Positions 8,491 to 48,300 of a DNA stretch of 64,000 nucleotides are shown here, one piece after another. The notes below the pieces were generated by a model. It did no database searches, was not told the DNA's origin, and worked only from the letters and a program-made list of their open reading frames with translations. Position 1 is the stretch's first letter; the number at the start of each line of letters is the position of its first letter. The DNA lies in assembly GCA_001692895.1 (NCBI GenBank), contig KV748204.1, forward strand, positions 310,001-374,000, given 5' to 3'. The position numbers and the translations under genes were made by a program. The stretch is from Cenococcum geophilum 1.58 (lineage: Eukaryota > Ascomycota > Dothideomycetes > Gloniales > Gloniaceae).

Positions 8491-9430
8491 TTTATAGGGT
8501 ATAGGTATAGTATATAGGCATAGTATGTTAGACTCTTACTAGCACTACAGTTTGGATATTAGCTACTTATATAATAAAGCTAGGCATAATATAATAAGTT
8601 AGAGTAAAATTTTTATTTAATTTATATATTTTGTAGCTTATTACTATAGTGTTGGGATTTTTCCTATATTCTTTTGCCAGTATTATTAAAAGTATAATAT
8701 ATTATATTATCTACTTTTTAGATACTTAGTACTTATTTTATATATCTATATATAATTCTTTTGCTTTTTTCAATTAGCTTAACGGATATCCTACCTCTAT
8801 TCTAGTTATTGCGATTATTATAACCTATACCTATACTATCTACTCCTCTAGCCTTATAGATAGTGCATTATATATATATTTTATCCTATAATAGATCTAG
8901 TAATAGCTAGTATATAACTTATTATAGATAAGGTAGCTAGTATTTAAAGCCTAATAAGACTTCTAATAGATATATAGTCTATTACCTTAAAGAAGCCTTA
9001 ACACTTTAATTATTACTTAGCGTCTATCTACTTTAAGCCTAAGATTAATTAATATAACTTTAAGAAAACTAATGCCTATTAAGAAGTGTAAGGCTTTTCT
9101 AGTCTAGCGTGGTTATATACATCGGCAAAATATGGTACCCTTTCAATGGCCTCAATGGTTGGTGGTTGACGCAATTGGCGCGCAGTTGAGGGCATTTAGC
9201 AACTCGACCGACTAGCCTATGTCGTGTTTTTTTGACACGCAGCCTGCGCGCAGCCTGNNNGNAACCTGCGCGCAACCTGCCAGCAATCTACGCATTTGGC
9301 AACAATAATTATATTTACCTCTTTTATACTAATAATATATTTTAAATAAATAAAAGCTATTTTAAAGCTATTTATAAGGCTAGCAAAATAAATATTATTA
9401 TTTTAGATAATTTAATATAATATAGCGATG
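8491..9430. other. AT-rich intergenic DNA with assembly Ns
   Basis: No ORF or recognisable domain trace. A short GC-rich patch near 9235-9300 has repeated CAGCCTGCGCG / AACCTGCGCG units and contains undetermined bases at 9258-9260 and 9262, so the assembly may be collapsed there. Confidence 0.5.
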
Positions 9431-9870
9431 GTTCTCTTCTACCTATCTACCTATTGACTTACCTACCTGCCTACATCGCCTACCTATTTATATTACTTAC
9501 CTATCTATATCTACCTATCTGCTATATCTACTTACCTATCTATATCTACCTATCTGCATTTGCCTACCTATCTATATCTACCTACCTATTTATATTTACC
9601 TACCCGTTAGCATCTACTTACCTATTTATATCTGCTTACCTGTCTACATTTACCTACCTATTTATATCTACTTGTCTATATCTACCTACCTATCTATATC
9701 TACCTACCTGTTAGTATTTATCTACCTATCTATATCTGCTTGCCTATCTATATTTACTTACCTATCTATATCTACCTGCCTATTTATATCTGCTTACCTG
9801 TCTATATTTACCTACCTGTCTATATCTACCTACTCGTTAGTATCTACCTGTTTATGCCTACCTGTCTATG
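9430..9870. repeat. Minisatellite A: pyrimidine-rich CTAC/CTAT array
   Basis: About 440 bp of imperfect CTACCTACCTATCTATAT-type units, almost purely pyrimidine plus A on the plus strand. The two open frames across it (9454-9714 and 9672-9896) only translate the repeat into Tyr/Leu/Ser strings and are not credible genes. Confidence 0.85.
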
Positions 9871-9914
9871 CTACCTTAATTCAATTAATTGATTGAATTG
9901 TTTATAGTATTGGC

Positions 9915-10875
9915 TAGCTAGTCGTTGTTGTCTGGCTTTGGCGACGGTTGTCTGGTTCTGGTGACGGTCGTCTGGTTTTGGTGACGGTTGTCTGGCTCTG
10001 GCAACGGTCGTCTAGTTCTGGTAATAGTCGTCTAGTTTTGGCGACGGTTGTTTGGTTCTGGTAATGGTTGTCTGGCTAGCGACGGTCGTCTGGTTCTGGC
10101 GATGGTCGTCTGGTTCTGGCAACGGTCGTCTGGTTCTGGCAACGGTTGTTTGGTTCTGGTAATGGTCGTCTAGCTGGCGACGGTTGTCTAGTTCTGGCGA
10201 CGGTTGTCTAGTTCTGGCGACGGTTGTCTGGCTCTGGCAACGGTTGTCTAGTTCTGGTAACGGTTGTCTGGTTCTGGCGACGGTTGTCTGGTTCTGGCGA
10301 TGATCGTCTGGCTTTGGCAATAGTTGTCTAGTTCTGGTAATAGTCGTCTGGCTAGCGACGGTTGTCTAGTTCTGGCGACGATCGTCTAGCTCTAGCAACG
10401 GTTGTCTGGTTCTGGTAACGGTTGTCTGGTTCTAGCGACGGTCGTCTAGTTCTAGTGACAGTTGTCTGGTTCTAGCGACGGTCGTCTGGCTTTGGCAACG
10501 GTTATCTGGTTTTGGTAACGGTCGTCTGGCTAGCGACGGTTGTCTGGTTCTGGCGACGGTTGTCTAGTTCTGGTAACGGTCGTCTGGCTGGCGATGGTTG
10601 TCTGGTTCTGGCGACAGTCGTCTGGTTCTGGTAACGGTTGTCTGGCTGGCGACGGTTGTCTGGTTCTGGTAACGGTCGTCTGGCTGGCGACGGTTGTTTG
10701 GTTCTGGTAACGGTCGTCTGGCTGGCGACGGTTGTCTGGTTCTGGTGATGATCGTCTGGCTTTGGCAACGGTCGTCTGGTTCTGGCGACGGTCGTCTGGC
10801 TGGTGATAGTCGTCTGGTTCTGGTAACGGTCATCTGGTTCTGGCGACGGTCGTCTAGTTCTAGCAACGGTCCTCT
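9915..10875. repeat. Minisatellite B: 20-bp unit
   Basis: Nearly 1 kb of a 20-bp unit with consensus GGCGACGGTTGTCTGGTTCT. Variants carry T/C and A/G changes, and about 16-18-bp units have lost CT or GG. Minus-strand open frames here translate to TRQPSPELDNRRQ-like repeats; because the unit is not a multiple of three and frames switch, these are artefacts of the array. Confidence 0.9.
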
Positions 10876-10999
10876 GCTGGCTGCCGTTCTGGTGCCTCCC
10901 TAGGTAGGGAGGATATAAAGAAGGAAGAAAGGGTAAAAAATAAGGTGGCTATATAGGGTAGAGGCACGTGTAGAGGCTATTGGGAATATAGCGGGGACC

Positions 11000-11392
11000 C
11001 GATGCAGAGCTTTGTGTAGAGCCTCTGTACGTAGAGCTTCTCGTAGAGCCTTGTGCAGAGCCTCTATACGCAGAGCTTCGCGCAGACCCTCGCGCAGACC
11101 CTTGCGCAGACCCTCGTGCAGAGCTTCGTGCAGAGCTTCGTGCAGAGCCTCTGTACGCAGAGCTTTGTGTAGAGCCTCGTGTAGAGCCTTATGCGAAGCT
11201 TCGTGCAGAGCTTTGTGCAGAGCCTTTATGCGTAGAGCTTTGTGCAGAGCCTCTGTACGCAGAGCTTCGTGTAGAGCCTCTATACGCAGAGCTTCGTATA
11301 GAGCTTCGTGTAGAGCCTNTATGCGCAGAGCTTCGTGCAGAGCCTCTGTACGCAGAGCTTNGTGTAGAGCCTCGTGCAGAGCCTCCAAGTAA
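11000..11392. repeat. Minisatellite C: 12-bp unit
   Basis: About 30 copies of a 12-bp unit (GTGCAGAGCTTC and variants with CCTCTGTACGCA). The unit is a multiple of three, so both strands stay open and give EALHKALR-like or RASCRA-like products; no start context or flanking coding sequence supports a gene. Undetermined bases occur at 11319 and 11361. Confidence 0.88.
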
Positions 11393-11499
11393 TAAGACTA
11401 TAAGATTGTATGAGATTGTATAAGATTGTATAGGATTATATATAATAGTTAAATATATANTATATAACTTTACCTTAATCGCACGTTAAGAAATATATA

Positions 11500-27788: not shown

Positions 27789-30651
27789 ATGGATCCGTAC
27801 AGCTATTCTTCGCTTCTGCCGGGACATGACAGCACTCGCTTGCTTCGCCTAATGCCAAATAAAGACGAGACTGCCGTTATCAAATGCCAACTCTTCGACT
27901 ACACCCTTGAATCAGGCAAACAGACTCACCTGTACGAAGCTTTATCCTACGTATGGGGCGATCCAAACAAGACCGTGCCTATTTTTGTAGGCGAGTATTG
28001 CTTCAACATCACGGAAAACCTTCACACGGCGCTGCTACATCTTCGAAATCACTCTATCGAACGAATTATATGGGTAGATGCTGTTTGCATCGACCAAGCA
28101 AATGAGCAAGAGAAAGTGCACCAAATTCAGTATATGGCGAAGATCTATGGTCAAGCAAACCATGTAATCATTTGGCTTGGAGAGGCGGCAGACAATAGCG
28201 ATCAAGCGTTCGAAGACATACGTATTGCTGCAGAAGATGAGTTTACGAATTCGTTGATAGAAGAAACGAGCCAGAAAGCAATTCTCAAACTGCTTGAACG
28301 ACTGTGGTTTCGGCGCATCTAGGTAAGGGAGCAAATACTCGACAATATCCGCAAAGTACTAAAAGTCGATCTAGGTGCTTCAGGAAGTCGCTGCAGCGCG
28401 AAGCGTTCTGATCATGTGTGGTTCTGCAGAGATGAACGGATACGCCTTTTGCTCAGGTCTCAACAAATTGGGGCTTTCCTGTTTTCCAGGCTTACAGGGT
28501 CTGATCCGTTCAGCAGTCTATCTGATAAGGGGAGCAATATTCCGACCTAGACATGCAGTGAGTTTGCCAAGCAGAGTCTCTTTAGGCGAGCTGATAGATA
28601 TGTACCATAACCGCGAGGCTACTAGGCGCCACGACAAGATCTATGCCTTGCTCGGCATGAGCTCTGAAGGTCCCAGCGCAGCTGGTTTATCGCCTAATTA
28701 CCAGGTCTCTTGGAAAGAACTTTTGCTGCGACTTGTTGGATTCCTTCTTTACAAAGAAATCTCTGTAGAGACTTGGAATGAAAGAGAGATAGCAGTGATC
28801 AAAACCAAGGGCTTTATTCTCGGCCAGGTGTCCTCGGTAGAAAGTGACAGTGCTCGGTATGATAGACAGCACGTGACTATCAAATTTAAGAATACGTCTA
28901 GGTCGTCAGAGTATAGGAGGAAATGGGGCAATCGATGGACTCTCCAGGCCTCGGCAAAGCCCATCCGGAATGGTGACCCCGTCTGCCTTCTACAAGGGGC
29001 TTCAAAGCCAACCATCATTAGAACACGCAAGGACCATTTTACTGTTATCGTGATCGCAGTTACTCCTCGGCAGGGCGTACAAACAAAGAGTAGATATGTT
29101 GAGCGCCAGGGATCCTTGCCTTCAATGGAAAGCTTCTCGCGTGACTTTCTACTGGCCTGGAACTGGGACGAGTCCAACGAAGCTTTGGCAGAGATCAATA
29201 CTCTGGTATCGGAGTATTCGATGACAGCTTCGAATAAAATAACCAGCTTGTATAATGTAGCACTAATCTTACAAGACGCGGGAGAGTATGAAGAGACAGG
29301 AAAGAGGTTTCAAGAAATAATAGAGGCCTATGAGGGACCGTCTACGGAGGAGCACCCATACAAGCTAGCATGTATGGAGAACCCGGCGTTTATATACAAG
29401 AAAAAAAACCTATTAGAAAAGGCAGAAGACTTATTTTTGCAGGTAATACAGACAAGAAAACGGGTGCAAGGGGTGGATCATCCAGATACGCTGAGCAGCA
29501 TAGCCAACCTAGCGTCAATTTACGTGGATAAAGGCAGGTTAAGCGCAAAGGCACTAGAGATGATGGAAAATCTATTAAGTCGAGTAAAACACAATGTCCA
29601 GATCCTAGAAGAAGAGATGGTCCTTATTACAAAGTCATTCGGTAAAGAAATAGTAACACTTTTACTCGTTCTAAAAAGAGACAATGCCCAGATTACAGAA
29701 GAGATGCTTAAGGCAGCAGCAGGAAATCTAGAGTATGGAGATGAAGTAATGACACTACTACTTGACCGAGGAGGGGACAATATCCAGATTACAGAAAAGG
29801 TGCTTAAGGCAGCAGCAGGGAATTGGGACTATGGAGATGAAGTAATGACACTGCTACTCGACCGAGGAGGGGACGATATCCAGATCACAGAAGAGGTGCT
29901 TAAGGCAGCAGCAGGAAATCAGGGGTATGGACTTAAAATAATGGCACTACTACTCGACCGAGGAGGGGACGATATCCAGATCACGGAAGAGGTGCTTAAG
30001 GCAGCGGCAGGAAATCCGACGTATGGACTTAAAGTAATAGCACTGCTACTCGACCGAGGAGGGGACAATATCCAGATCACAGAAGAGGTGCTTAAGGAAG
30101 CAGCAGGAAATCCGTGGTATGGACATAAATTGATAGCTCTGCTACTTAACCGAGGAGGGGACGACATTCAGATTACAGAAGAAGTGCTTAAGGCAGCAGC
30201 AGGGAATTGGTATGGAGATAAAGTAATAACACTGCTACTTAACCGAGGAGGGGATAATATCCAGATCACAGAAGAGGTGCTTAAGGCAGCAGCAGGAAAT
30301 TGGTATTAAGATGAAAGAATAGTGCTGCTACTTAACCGAAGAGTGGACGATATCCAGATCACAGAAGAGGTGCTTAAGGCAGCAGCAGGGAATTCGACGT
30401 ATGGACTTAAAGTAATAGCACTGCTACTTAACCGAGGAGGGGATAATATCCAGATCACAGAAGAGGTGCTTAAGGCAGCAGCAGGAAGTCTGGGGTATGG
30501 AGAAAGAATAATGGCACTATTACTCGACCGAGGAGGGGACAATATCCAGATCACAGAAGAGGTGCTTAAGGCAGCAGCAGGGAATTTAACTTGTAGATAT
30601 AAAGTAATGGCGCTACTTGACCGAAGAGGGATACTTGAGGTAGCATTATAA
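27789..30651 (+). pseudogene. HET-TPR-repeat protein, interrupted by two stops
   Basis: ATG at 27789; exon 1 ends at 28322, intron 28323-28374 (GTAAGG...CTAG), exon 2 from 28375 in frame. HET blocks: YEALSYVWGDP, WVDAVCIDQANEQEKVH, IYGQANHVIIWLG, then LWFRRI before a TAG (28320-28322) where the family has Trp, and VLQEVAAARSVLIMCGS after the intron. TPR-like units follow (about 29250-29560: DAGEYEETGKRFQEI, EKAEDLFLQVIQTRKRVQG, HPDTLSSIANLASIY), then ten tandem 32-aa repeats from about 29690 to 30645. A second in-frame stop, TAA at 30307-30309, replaces a Gly codon in repeat 7; the frame stays open beyond it to 30651. The layout is that of non-self recognition proteins. The first stop leaves only a 177-aa HET fragment, so I call it a pseudogene in this strain; recoding or a sequencing error cannot be excluded. 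Confidence 0.82.
29690..30645 (+). repeat. Ten tandem ~96-bp repeats coding a 32-aa unit
   Basis: Each unit encodes ITEEVLKAAAGN, three variable residues (LEY, WDY, QGY, PTY, PWY, W-Y, STY, LGY, LTC), a short variable stretch, then LLLDRGGDDIQ. A degenerate unit precedes the array (LEEEMVLITKSFG). Copies are nearly identical apart from the variable positions. The unit resembles a repeat of unknown function seen in fungal HET, NACHT and patatin-type proteins. Confidence 0.85.
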
Positions 30652-43000: not shown

Positions 43001-45394
43001 GCATGCAAAGGGCGGTGGTATACGGCACAGTAAGGCGTATTGGGATCCGCTCCTTCGTTTAATAATATCTGCACAATATCAGGATGACCCTCAACGGCAG
43101 CTGCACCGAGAGCTGATCCCAGTTCCTCTTTCTTTAGTCCAGTGTCAGAGCCCTTTAGTAACCATGTTGCAATGGGAAGAAGTCCGTAGTAGCAGGCGTA
43201 ATACAAGGGGGTTTCGAAGTCTTGCCTGTTGCGTTTCAAGTTAAACCCCATCGAAACGATCTTTCCGTCGTCATATAGGCTCCAGACTGATGCAGGGTCG
43301 TAGAGGTTGAGGAAGTTCATGAGACTCTCGGGATGATCAGGGTCGAATAACCGGACGAGCAGACCTTCAACAGAATTTCTCCCACTCGCAGGCACTGCGC
43401 GCATATGCGTGATCCAATGTAGGGAGGAATAAGCGAGCAAAGGGAACTCGTCATGGTCGAAATTGCTCGCTCTTTGACTGCCGTTAAAGTCAAGCAGGTA
43501 TATCAAGCACATCTCGGTGATCTGCCGCTGACAGACAGACTCTTCGATATGCAATTTTGCGGCCATAGCCTTTTGGGCCCGCTCTGAAAGGATGTATTCT
43601 TTGACTGAAAAGTGCGCAAATTGGAGCATCTTGACATCAGGTGCCCACGGGATGCTTGAAAAGCCTCTTTCTTTTTTCAAGTCTGACGTTGGGTCCGAGC
43701 TGGGCTCTGACAAGGACACAAGACTTGAACAAAGCTCCAGGATATCGTAAGGGTCAGGAAATCTTTCCTCGACGGAGAACTTCTGGGCTTCGAGGTCCAC
43801 AGCAGTCGCCTCTGCGACTTCCTGGATTGTCATTGGCCTAGTGGAGAATGCCAAAAGCATAAGAATGGTTCGCATCTCCCTTTCGTAATCGGGTGGCATA
43901 TCTTTGAAGATCCTTTCGTAGGTACCTTCCAAGGTTCTTGGAAGGTCATCCAGTTTCTGTTTTATAGTTGGTAGCTTTGGTTTGAGACAGGTTCGGAGAG
44001 AATCTAGCTGACATACAGCCCATCGAAACCTTAGCAGAATTAGCTTTTGTCCTTTACAGGTTACGAAATACTTACATCCCGTTTGCTTTGTCCGTGAGAG
44101 CATCTACAACCTCTTCTTTCACATTTGCTGGCCATTTTTTCATTCGGGCATCTTTCGCTAGATACGCTTTGACATGCAATCGGATATCTTCATTCACTAA
44201 GGTCCCTAACACCTCCAAGACCATATCTCCAAGTACCATCATTTCGCGTCGAATGTCCAGTTCCGGGCGACTCGTAACGAAGATGCAGTAAGACCCCGTT
44301 GCCAACGTTTTGATACTAGCCAAAGCTTCGAAAAAGGCCTCTCGCTCTCGTTCCCCTTCCTCTTCTTTACATTCATCCAGAGCATCAATGACGATGAAAT
44401 CTCTTGATGAGGTACTCAGCATGGATGTCAACGCATCAGTCAGCTGTGCAGAGCTAGGATCACTCCCTTTACACTCTTCGTAGAGCGACAATAAAGGTTC
44501 GGGAACGCTATCCGACTGCGCGCAGAGCTGTTGAACAAGAGACTTCAGACAGCCGGTGACGGTTTGCTTTCTGGGGTCATTGAAGTCGAAGTAGTAATAG
44601 GCGACACGGCAGCCTGGACGCTTATCATATTGAGCGGTAAGGTGACGGATCACCGTTGAGCTTGATAGAAATTAGACTCGTCCTGGTGCCTTGGGCTGCG
44701 ACAGGGAAACGGACCTTAATATCGTCTTTCCCGCTCCAGGTATCCCGTAAAGCCACATAAATTGGCCGTCTCCTACCTCCCAAGATTGAAATTGTTCTGA
44801 ATGAAGTAGCCAATCACTAGTACCACTTTCGTGCTTCTTACGCGCAGCGTTGTAGTTGGTGGAAGGATCAGCTCCTCTTAACCAACCGATAACCTTATTC
44901 CGCTGCTCAGTGACCTTCATATCCTCCAACATTATCTTGACTTTGCCAACTTCAGCCGCATTTGCATCGTCCGAGAAGGCGTGATCTCCAACGAGAGCGA
45001 AAAGGAATGTCTGTTTCTGTTCCCCTAACTTGTTCAAGATTTCGGCAATTTTGCTTTGTTCAAGGGGCCACGTCAGTCTCCTCCGAGCATTGGAAGCTTC
45101 AGTAAGTGATTTCAGCCTCTTCTGCAGTTCCTTCAACGCCTGGGAGGATGCTTGAAAAGCACCATTTGGCCCCTCAAGAGACTTTAATAGAGCATGACGT
45201 TCATCTTCAGGATCTGAGGTGAGCGATTGTAGGCGCTTGAGGATGCCCTCAAGCCCGCTGATATCATTGATGACGTTCTGTATATCACCAGGAGCATTCT
45301 TGGCCTTCCTAATATAGTCGTAACAACTTGAGAGGACAGTCCCGCTGAACTGGACAAGTTGAATGATAGTGGCTGCTGCGGCAATTTCGGCCAT
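40051..45394 (-). CDS. NLR-type protein: fungal N-domain, NACHT, about 28 ankyrin repeats
   Basis: Three exons by my model: 45394-44715, 44660-44076 and 44029-40051, with 54- and 46-bp introns that restore frame exactly; 1,747 aa. The ATG at 45394 opens MAEIAAAATIIQLVQFSGTV, typical of the N-terminal helical domain of fungal NLRs (SesA/NACHT-N-like). The P-loop GIPGAGKT (residues 217-224) lies in exon 1 just before the first intron; Walker B DFIVIDALDE is at 314-323, then TSRPELDIRRE. A winged-helix-like part follows (RIFKDMPPDYEREMRTILML, MTIQEVAEA). From about residue 690 to the end run ankyrin repeats, many ending GADVNAxGGxYGTALQAA. Such STAND proteins act as intracellular recognition switches in heterokaryon incompatibility or defence. 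The frame is fully intact. The repeats are diverse in sequence, unlike the near-identical ones at 29.7 kb. Target and effector arm are unknown. Confidence 0.93.
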
Positions 45395-46211
45395 GGCTTT
45401 GATTAATGTGCTTTGGAATACAGTACCCCAATTAGGGCAAAGTACCGATATGAAAATGGAAGTGTGATCGTCCAGTTTCTTTTCGGAGAGAGATACTATG
45501 AAATCACAAGCGACATGCACAACTGAAAGAAAGTTCGAGCATAGGCCCTTTCATCAAGGAAAAGTCGACCTACCACGCACTGCAACCGCCGCCTAGGCTC
45601 TCCTGTTCAGCCACATCTGTATGTGCGCTCAAAGCGAGCCAGTAACGCCCGCCAAGAACGCCCCCTAGTCTTCGGCCTCCTGAGGGTTGGAAGGCTGAAA
45701 TCAGAGGCACTGCCGCCCTTCTAGGCCTCGATGTATGACCTGAATAGAGGATGGTTGTCACTGGATGGTCTCCAGAGCATGAGCGAGATGAAAATGAGAG
45801 GAATGCAGTCGGGAATTCGATGATGTGGCCCCGGGAGTGGTCAAACACGCTAACTACAGTGGTGCGCTAAACTCAGAGGCAGCGTACCTACACGTAGTTT
45901 ACTAGAATGTTAAACGCTACAATACAAGTCTACATAGTTCTTTTGCATCAGACTTTACATGATATCACATGACTTAAACTGGATGTTGGTGTAATAGCCG
46001 AAGCCGCCTTTTCTAGTTAAATATCAATAGTGATATCCACGGGAAAATTTGTATAGCTGATTTAGTAGCTTAGCAGCAAGCCGAATACCAGCGCGAGCGT
46101 TGATTGGAGCTAGGTGAGGCATTCAATACCATACAAAGCACCTTACTGTCTGCTGAGTACATAGAAAACTAGGTTCAACCCGTAACATGCCTATCTCCCA
46201 TCCCGTCTGTC
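45395..46211. other. Promoter side of the NLR gene and intergenic DNA
   Basis: About 0.8 kb. The open frame continuing upstream of the NLR ATG (to 45520) begins with an ATG in poor context and encodes no conserved N-terminus, so I did not use it. The minus-strand ORF at 45570-45848 has no recognisable content. 45880-46150 is AT-rich. Confidence 0.5.
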
Positions 46212-47271
46212 TCAAGGGGACATTAGACCTTTTAGAATTAATCGGCCCTCCTCGCAATCATCGTCATCATAGAACTTTAGTCCATAGCTATACAGGAAGT
46301 TCATAGAGTTACCATACCCTTTCTCAATGTATTCCAGTTCAGCGTCCGTGAAGTGGTAGTCGGCCATATGTCCTTCAAGGCTGGATTCGATATCTTCGTC
46401 CTCATCCTCGTCCTCGTCCTCGTCCTCGTCCTCGAGTTCCTCTTCCTCTTCACTTCGCATTAAGGAACGCAGAATCGCGCGGCCCTCTTCACGATCCTCG
46501 TCCTTGTAAATGCTCAAACCAAAGTCCCGAAGGAACTGGAACTCGCTACGGTAGTTCTCCTTTAGCCATCCTTTCTCCTTTTCTGTATAGATAGGCCCGG
46601 GATGATGGGCGGTACGGCCTTGATGAGCTTCCCACTTCTGCCTCTCAGAATCAGGCCAAATGGCATTGATCACGTAATCCTGCCCATCCTTTAGGACGTT
46701 CGATCCAATTGGATGACCGCGAAGCTTGACTTGTAGCAGAGGGCGGCGGCTATCGAAGTACGCGACCGAACGGCCTTTCCGATCCTTGATCGAGCCTAGG
46801 GAAGCTTTCCCAGCGGGACCGGCGGTTACCTTGTGGTCTTCTAGGATTGGGCCGCCAATGATATTGCAGAGAGCGGAAGGCACATGGTTACCTTGTGGTC
46901 TTCTAGGATTGGGCCGCCAATGATATTGCAGAGAGCGGAAGGCACATGGTTACCTTGTGGTCTTCTAGGATTGGGCCGCCAATGATATTGCAGAGAGCGG
47001 AAGGCACATGGAGCACGTTCGTGAGGCATAGAATGCCGTGGGAGTCTCGTCCGGAGCGATTTGGTGATCGCTTAGTTGGTAGCTCGACGGTACCTATACC
47101 TTCAACACCGAGACTCTCCTTGACCATTCCGTAGAGGTCGCCGACAACGGATTCGTACGGCGTGTAGTCTCTGAACCATGCTCTATCCTTAGCGATGCTG
47201 TAACAGTTAGCGGGTTTTGGCTTTGAGGTAACGAGTGCGTCAAGATGAGGAAAGCGATACTCACTGGACAT
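46212..47271 (-). CDS. Copia-Pol-derived beta-barrel-like protein, interrupted by a 62-bp triplication
   Basis: The first part, from ATG 47271, reads MSSEYRFPHLDALV..., including AWFRDYTPYESVVGDL and GIGTVELPTKRSP...LTNVLHVPSALCNI. This resembles the beta-barrel/retropepsin-like segment of Copia Pol (WILDSGAS...GIGTV.L..LHNVLYVP), but the DSGA catalytic site is absent. The second part continues KVTAGPAGKASLG and ends with two related units (FLRDFGLSIYKDEDREEGR; FLYSYGLKFYDDDDCEEGR) separated by an acidic run. The two parts are in different frames because three 62-bp tandem copies lie between them. Removing 46830-46953 (124 bp, starting GTAACC and ending CACAAG) joins them exactly: exons 47271-46954 and 46829-46212, 311 aa. 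I model it as a spliced gene; if that segment is not an intron, this is a pseudogene. A retained single-copy protein suggests domestication. Confidence 0.6.
46824..47011. repeat. 62-bp tandem repeat, three identical copies, containing AG|GT
   Basis: Units at 46824-46885, 46886-46947 and 46948-47009 (plus 2 bp) are identical. On the coding (minus) strand each unit contains ...CCACAAG|GTAACC. The unit is not a multiple of three and 124 extra bases shift frame, so the copies either break the gene or are spliced out. Confidence 0.95.
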
Positions 47272-47545: not shown

Positions 47546-48300
47546 GCTTATGGGCGTCGCTTTGGTGGTAATTGAATGTTTTAGAAATCGAATTTTGTGT
47601 ATTTCTACGAGCTATGTCTTAACCACGATAGTTATATTATATATATTTAATGTAATGGATTCTTTAGGTAATTATATCTTTATAAATATATACTATAGCC
47701 CTATATCTAGAATATTAAGGGGCGAGATACATCGTCGTAGAACGTAAGTTAGGATTCTCAAATGCATCTTCGTAGATTTTGAACTAAAATCGATCGACTA
47801 CCTACGTCCAACTTCTTATAGAATAGAGCCACGATATCGCCACAACGTAGAGGCGATAGAGAAGATAAAGAGCTTTTACCTTATAGTATTTTAGAGATAA
47901 TTAGACGTAGAGAAGTACGTAAGTTTTGGCAGTAAGGCAAGATTATAATAAAATACACTAAAACGACTAACTACCTATGTCTAACTTCTCGTAAAATAGA
48001 GCTATGATATTGCTATAATATAGAGGTAATAAAGAAGATAAAGGGCTTTTACCTCGTAGTATTTTAGGGATAATTAGATGTAGAGAAGCATATAAGGTAT
48101 AGCAGTAAGGCAAGATTGCGATGAAAAATGCGACCGACGAGAAAACGCGACTGACGAGAAAACGCGACCGACTGCCCCTATCTAACACCCTATATAATAT
48201 CGTTATTTAATACAATAAATAGAGAATCTAAAGAGCTCCTACCTCGTAGTATTTTTATAATAATTAGACGTTATAAAAGGGTTGAGATACAGCGTTGTAA
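47546..48300. repeat. AT-rich degenerate tandem repeat, about 175 bp unit
   Basis: The block AAAGAGCTTTTACCTYRTAG followed by TATTTTAG.GATAATTAGAYG recurs near 47868, 48042 and 48230. Between copies lies TCTAACTTCTCGTAAAATAG-like sequence. Differences are mostly transitions, consistent with RIP. Short ORFs here have no domain content. The first 200 bp (47546-47780) are AT-rich unique DNA. Confidence 0.55.

Follow-up and report, generated by a model that had tools for sequence, protein, structure and literature searches.

A gene on the minus strand of the 64-kb window (the whole 64,000-nucleotide stretch of Cenococcum geophilum 1.58 DNA that was analysed) carries three identical, head-to-tail copies of a 62-bp stretch of its own coding sequence. 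We consider it probable that this array is a recent intragenic tandem triplication and that the result is a truncated protein, predicted to retain the Pol_BBD match of the gene. The array, the reading frames, the position of the stop codon and the comparison of splice signals are direct observations. In the favored model, a 62-bp stretch at one genomic place would have been triplicated in tandem very recently, presumably by replication slippage or misaligned repair. Most transcripts would then read into the second copy and stop after 122 codons, giving a product that keeps the Pol_BBD match and lacks the C-terminal part, including the acidic run and the two modules that resemble each other. 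Alternatively, the frameshifted transcripts may be degraded. The frameshifted allele would be expected to have lost or changed its function.

Structure of the array and its effect on the reading frame

Tandem Repeats Finder places the array at 46824–47011 with a period of 62, 3.0 copies, 100% match, and 0 indels. Extraction of the sequence resolves these 188 bp into three identical 62-mers (46824–47009) followed by GG up to 47011; the trailing GG equals the first two bases of the unit, so the array has 2 bp of edge homology. In coding order on the minus strand, extraction gives copy 1 at 46948–47009, copy 2 at 46886–46947, and copy 3 at 46824–46885, and every unit contains AAG/GTAACC on that strand. 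Both the exact triplication within a coding sequence and the presence of AG/GT in each of its identical units, as set out in a preliminary description of this DNA, are borne out by these coordinates, and the identity of the copies points to a recent event. The array contains no N letters. Among the arrays listed for the window it is the only one with a period of at least 20 and 100% match, which argues against a chance repeat. Searched as DNA against the whole assembly (177,193,698 bases in 162 contigs) by a method that passes over very common words, the array stretch was matched once. An introner-like element, which would be present as near-identical copies in many genes, was rejected on the basis of this single match.

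The two extra units add 124 bp, which is 1 mod 3, and thereby shift the frame. The stretch between the ATG at 47271 and the end of the stop at 46212 measures 1060 nt; subtracting 124 leaves 936 nt, or 311 codons plus a stop, and this arithmetic agrees with the 311-codon frame that had been described. The first open frame (46903–47271, minus strand) starts at the ATG at 47271 and encodes 122 amino acids with Pol_BBD at residues 26–102; 14 out-of-frame residues precede its TAG stop at 46905–46903 in copy 2. The second open frame (46212–46883, minus strand; 223 amino acids in a stop-to-stop frame of 46212–46949) encodes the residues of the 62-bp unit again and then the rest of the protein up to the stop ending at 46212. 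Its earliest in-frame ATG, with ATG starts considered, is at 46460, so separate translation of the C-terminal half is unlikely. Both halves of the gene are open apart from the array, which is therefore the only lesion seen. An otherwise undamaged gene would also be compatible with splicing that has kept it functional. To judge from the frames, the long protein would require either a single copy of the unit or an RNA from which both extra units had been taken out. Since the stop sits in copy 2, alleles with two, three, or four copies would share the same predicted 122-residue product. As this product retains the Pol_BBD match, truncation need not amount to an "off" state.

Among the repeats of this genome, fresh tandem arrays are not unusual, as the retroelement loci L008–L037 contain 37 listed arrays with a period of at least 20 and at least 90% match, mostly with units of 24–28 bp. 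No such array was found in loci L038–L067 or in loci L070–L094, the latter comprising 59,165 bases around conserved genes. Within the window, a 173-bp tandem duplication at 47797–48117 (1.9 copies, 82% match) is situated roughly 500 bp upstream of the ATG of the gene, and a 96-bp repeat array at 29680–30585 (9.5 copies, 85% match) lies mostly inside an ORF at 28375–30309 that has TPR and DUF7104 matches. Nine N letters occur at seven places in the window (9258–11460, 50327, and 59336), those at 11319 and 11361 within a minisatellite.

The host gene and its surroundings

The first half of the protein matches PF22936 (Pol_BBD) over residues 26–102 with an E-value of 4.2e-7 and 30.6 bits against a Pfam cut-off of 27. 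The second half has no Pfam match above cut-off, and neither half had a hit in the PDB or NCBIfam with an E-value of 0.1 or lower. Read by eye, the second half contains a pair of similar modules, each about 45 residues long and beginning GPIYTEKEKGWLKENYRSEFQFLRDFGLSIYKDEDREEGR and YHFTDAELEYIEKGYGNSMNFLYSYGLKFYDDDDCEEGR respectively, around an acidic run that is encoded by a 6-bp repeat at 46396–46434 (minus strand), which was listed by Tandem Repeats Finder and interpreted by eye. When the same genome was searched with the first half, and with the sequence that follows the array, only this locus was matched; a paralogue with a single-copy unit, considered as a possible ancestor, was thus not found in this genome. 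The second half gave short partial matches in its C-terminal modules at C54:58048 (62 residues, 47% identity, 1.9e-7) and C20:38744 (46 residues, 2.2e-4). A literature search for Pol_BBD in fungi gave nothing relevant, the one paper returned being an unrelated one on a plant genome.

The DSGA motif is the catalytic motif of the Copia-type protease. Of seven retroelement copies tried from the same genome, six stop-free ones, read by eye, have FVLDSGA (2/6) or FVLDLGA (4/6), and the gene has CYSIAKDRAWF at about this place; no DSGA-type motif was found by eye at the start of its Pol_BBD domain. Domain scanning covered 20 of the 27 stop-to-stop ORFs with at least 180 codons, segments of another three, and the gene's first half. 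In this set no integrase, reverse transcriptase, or other retroelement domain besides Pol_BBD was found, and the gene therefore looks like a stand-alone gene instead of a live element. An active Copia element was rejected on these two grounds, the absent motif and Pol_BBD as the only retroelement domain in the scanned ORFs. The gene looks fungal, with a Pol_BBD domain that lacks the usual protease motif. The list of the 30 best Pol_BBD matches in the genome has 22 on contigs C4, C17, C37, and C65, and 23 with an internal stop. Other domains in the window are HET, NACHT/NPHP3_N with ankyrin repeats, and ATP-citrate lyase; together with introns that carry YTNAY, they point to a filamentous ascomycete. 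At 44072–45520, an NPHP3_N/NACHT match is split at the P-loop over two open stretches in one frame (profile positions 1–41 and 43–164); the stop between them perhaps marks a short intron, and a long ankyrin ORF follows.

Splice signals of the candidate intron

The triplication had been proposed to create an intron running from the GT of the first copy to the AG of the last. The coordinates uphold the existence of this pair: the segment that opens with the GT at 46953 and closes with the AG at 46830 spans exactly 124 nt, 1 mod 3, and its removal restores the frame. The restored frame and the same residues at the joint had been offered as support for an intron and are correct as described, but they carry no weight for splicing, because both follow automatically when whole units leave a once-intact frame.

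The splice signals were compared with those of 20 reference introns from the same genome, inferred from protein continuity with no motif required beyond GT and AG. Twelve came from nine of 20 mitochondrial-carrier loci, where lengths of 42–150 nt were allowed; the 14 spliced candidates at these loci were reduced to 12 by dropping two that were stop-free and a multiple of three, and two of the 12 were included with a margin of less than 1 bit over the next choice. The remaining eight came from chaperonin genes, in which 10 junctions were tested in five stretches and two were dropped, one having no option in register and the other three equal options. In this small set, taken from conserved genes, in which introns may be more sharply defined than newly arisen ones, lengths are 47–116 nt, and a YTNAY motif lies 6–70 nt before the acceptor in 18/20 introns (19/20 with NTNAC allowed). 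The acceptors are CAG in eight, TAG in eight, and AAG in four, making AAG frequent in this genome, and one intron has the donor AAG/GTAAAC.

Against this reference, the candidate donor in copy 1 (AAG/GTAACC, GT at 46952–46953, minus strand) is fair, with a score of 5.39 that lies above 3/20 reference introns in a leave-one-out comparison. In contrast, the candidate acceptor in copy 3 (CCACAAG/G, AG at 46830–46831, minus strand) is weak, with a score of 1.91 that lies above 1/20. The candidate is longer than 20/20 reference introns, and YTNAY is absent throughout its 124 nt. The sole NTNAC located 6–70 nt before its acceptor is GTAAC, 58 nt away with two other AGs in between. The GC content (0.52, reference 0.30–0.60) and the pyrimidine content before the acceptor (0.50, reference 0.32–0.64) are ordinary. 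A competing acceptor, the CCTAG in copy 2 (46903–46904, minus strand), is the first after the donor and lies 51 nt from it, a usual intron length here; with a score of 4.2 it outscores the candidate acceptor. Its use would leave the frame broken, because 51 nt is 0 mod 3, and the frame also stays broken after a 62-nt join from the same donor. When the 80 frame-restoring GT–AG pairs of 42–400 nt were ranked by donor plus acceptor score, with matrices from the first 12 reference introns, the 124-nt pair came 16th. The 15 pairs ahead of it are all at least 169 nt long and would take coding sequence beyond the array. As such, the intron proposal keeps a fair donor and is set back by the missing YTNAY, the weak acceptor, the competing AGs, and the unusual length.

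The AG/GT sequence itself is common in long ORFs. Across the 27 stop-free ORFs of at least 180 codons, which include overlapping ones on both strands and are not all genes, AGGT occurs in 4565 of 24372 62-nt windows and AGGTA, as in the array, in 1007; within the gene itself, the corresponding AGGT counts for its unique parts are 16/551 and 65/199 windows. Donors scoring as high as AAG/GTAACC make up 481 of the 6770 GTs of the 64-kb window. Among 82 exonic AGGTs, a donor as good is found in 8, an acceptor as good in 43, YTNAY in the preceding 62 nt in 37, and all three signals in 1. By these counts the donor genuinely favors an intron, while the other signals are ordinary or worse.

Weighing the explanations and comparison with known systems

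Until RNA is examined, truncation is likelier than an intron because the usual internal splicing signal is absent. Truncation is supported by the identical copies with their edge homology, by the array as the only lesion, and by the stop in copy 2. It gains further from the missing YTNAY, the low-ranking acceptor, a length of 124 nt against 47–116 nt, the failure of the CCTAG and 62-nt joins to restore the frame, and the commonness of AGGT. It is weakened by a donor that is good for an exonic site, by the lower frequency of AGGTA, by the AAG acceptors of four reference introns and the lack of YTNAY in two, by ordinary GC and pyrimidine contents, and by the length of the better-scoring frame-restoring pairs. 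A newborn spliceosomal intron, in which the copy 1 donor is joined to the copy 3 acceptor so that 124 nt are taken out and the protein is unchanged, is unlikely. It would account for an exact GT–AG pair in the correct phase, with a donor within the range of real introns and an AAG acceptor of a kind used here, and a tandem-duplication route of this kind is documented (PMC3629103, PMC3443670). However, the branch motif, the acceptor, and the length stand against it, as do nearer and stronger AGs that leave the frame broken; the rank among frame-restoring pairs also counts against it, though every pair ahead is longer, and the restored frame is automatic. We regard as doubtful the more specific picture of an intron caught at birth, in which an undiverged three-copy AG/GT array loses 124 nt in a single splicing step despite having no canonical branch motif, and the gene survives its frameshift.

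An assembly or polishing artefact, with a gene that is in truth single-copy, is improbable. The otherwise intact gene fits such an error, and the isolated N letters at seven places mark unresolved positions elsewhere in the window, but the array is free of N and an exact 62-bp triplication without mismatch would be an unusual error. Quite improbable is a contingency switch in which contraction and expansion of the array toggle the C-terminal half within the population. Perfect direct repeats can recombine, and the window also contains HET and NACHT-ankyrin genes, which are frequently variable. The frame, however, returns only at exactly one copy, as the stop is in copy 2. The earlier suggestion of a slippage-reversible off switch is accordingly weaker than claimed: two to four copies are equivalent, nothing short of contraction to one copy would reopen the frame, and the Pol_BBD match is retained throughout.

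With a predicted truncation thus preferred, the fate of the 124 nt in RNA sets the significance of the locus. If they stay, the array is an everyday truncation mutation; if they are removed, it is an intron gain whose copies have not yet diverged, and it would be a test of whether an exonic duplicate that lacks a canonical branch motif is accepted by a fungal spliceosome. Only a few recent intron gains are said to have a known source sequence (PMC4974935). Intron gain by tandem duplication of exonic AG/GT is a known route (PMC4974935, PMC3443670), with 188 events under tandem duplication in a review table (PMC3443670). The present array resembles this route in that an exonic AG/GT segment is repeated, and the first GT and the last AG could bound a silent intron (PMC4974935, PMC3443670). 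The vertebrate ATP2A1 duplicate, as cited via PMC4974935, was reported with a branch point and a polypyrimidine tract, whereas the 62-bp unit has no YTNAY and is known from genomic sequence alone.

In fission yeast, two genes have new introns built of 24-nt tandem repeats (PMC3629103), and here too an exonic unit of a fungal gene is repeated in tandem within a candidate intron. The fission-yeast units are 24 nt and not fully identical, while those of the array are 62 bp and identical (PMC3629103). The proto-splice site in fission yeast is given as AGGC (PMC3629103) and as AGGT when retold in PMC4974935; that of the array is AGGT. The fission-yeast introns have EST support, in which one EST removes more than the annotated intron and the other agrees with the annotation with little of the 5′ exon covered (PMC3629103). 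The array is also like an ordinary intragenic tandem duplication in its identical head-to-tail copies, 2-bp edge homology, broken frame, and early stop, and unlike one in having three copies instead of two and a unit that contains a fair donor site.
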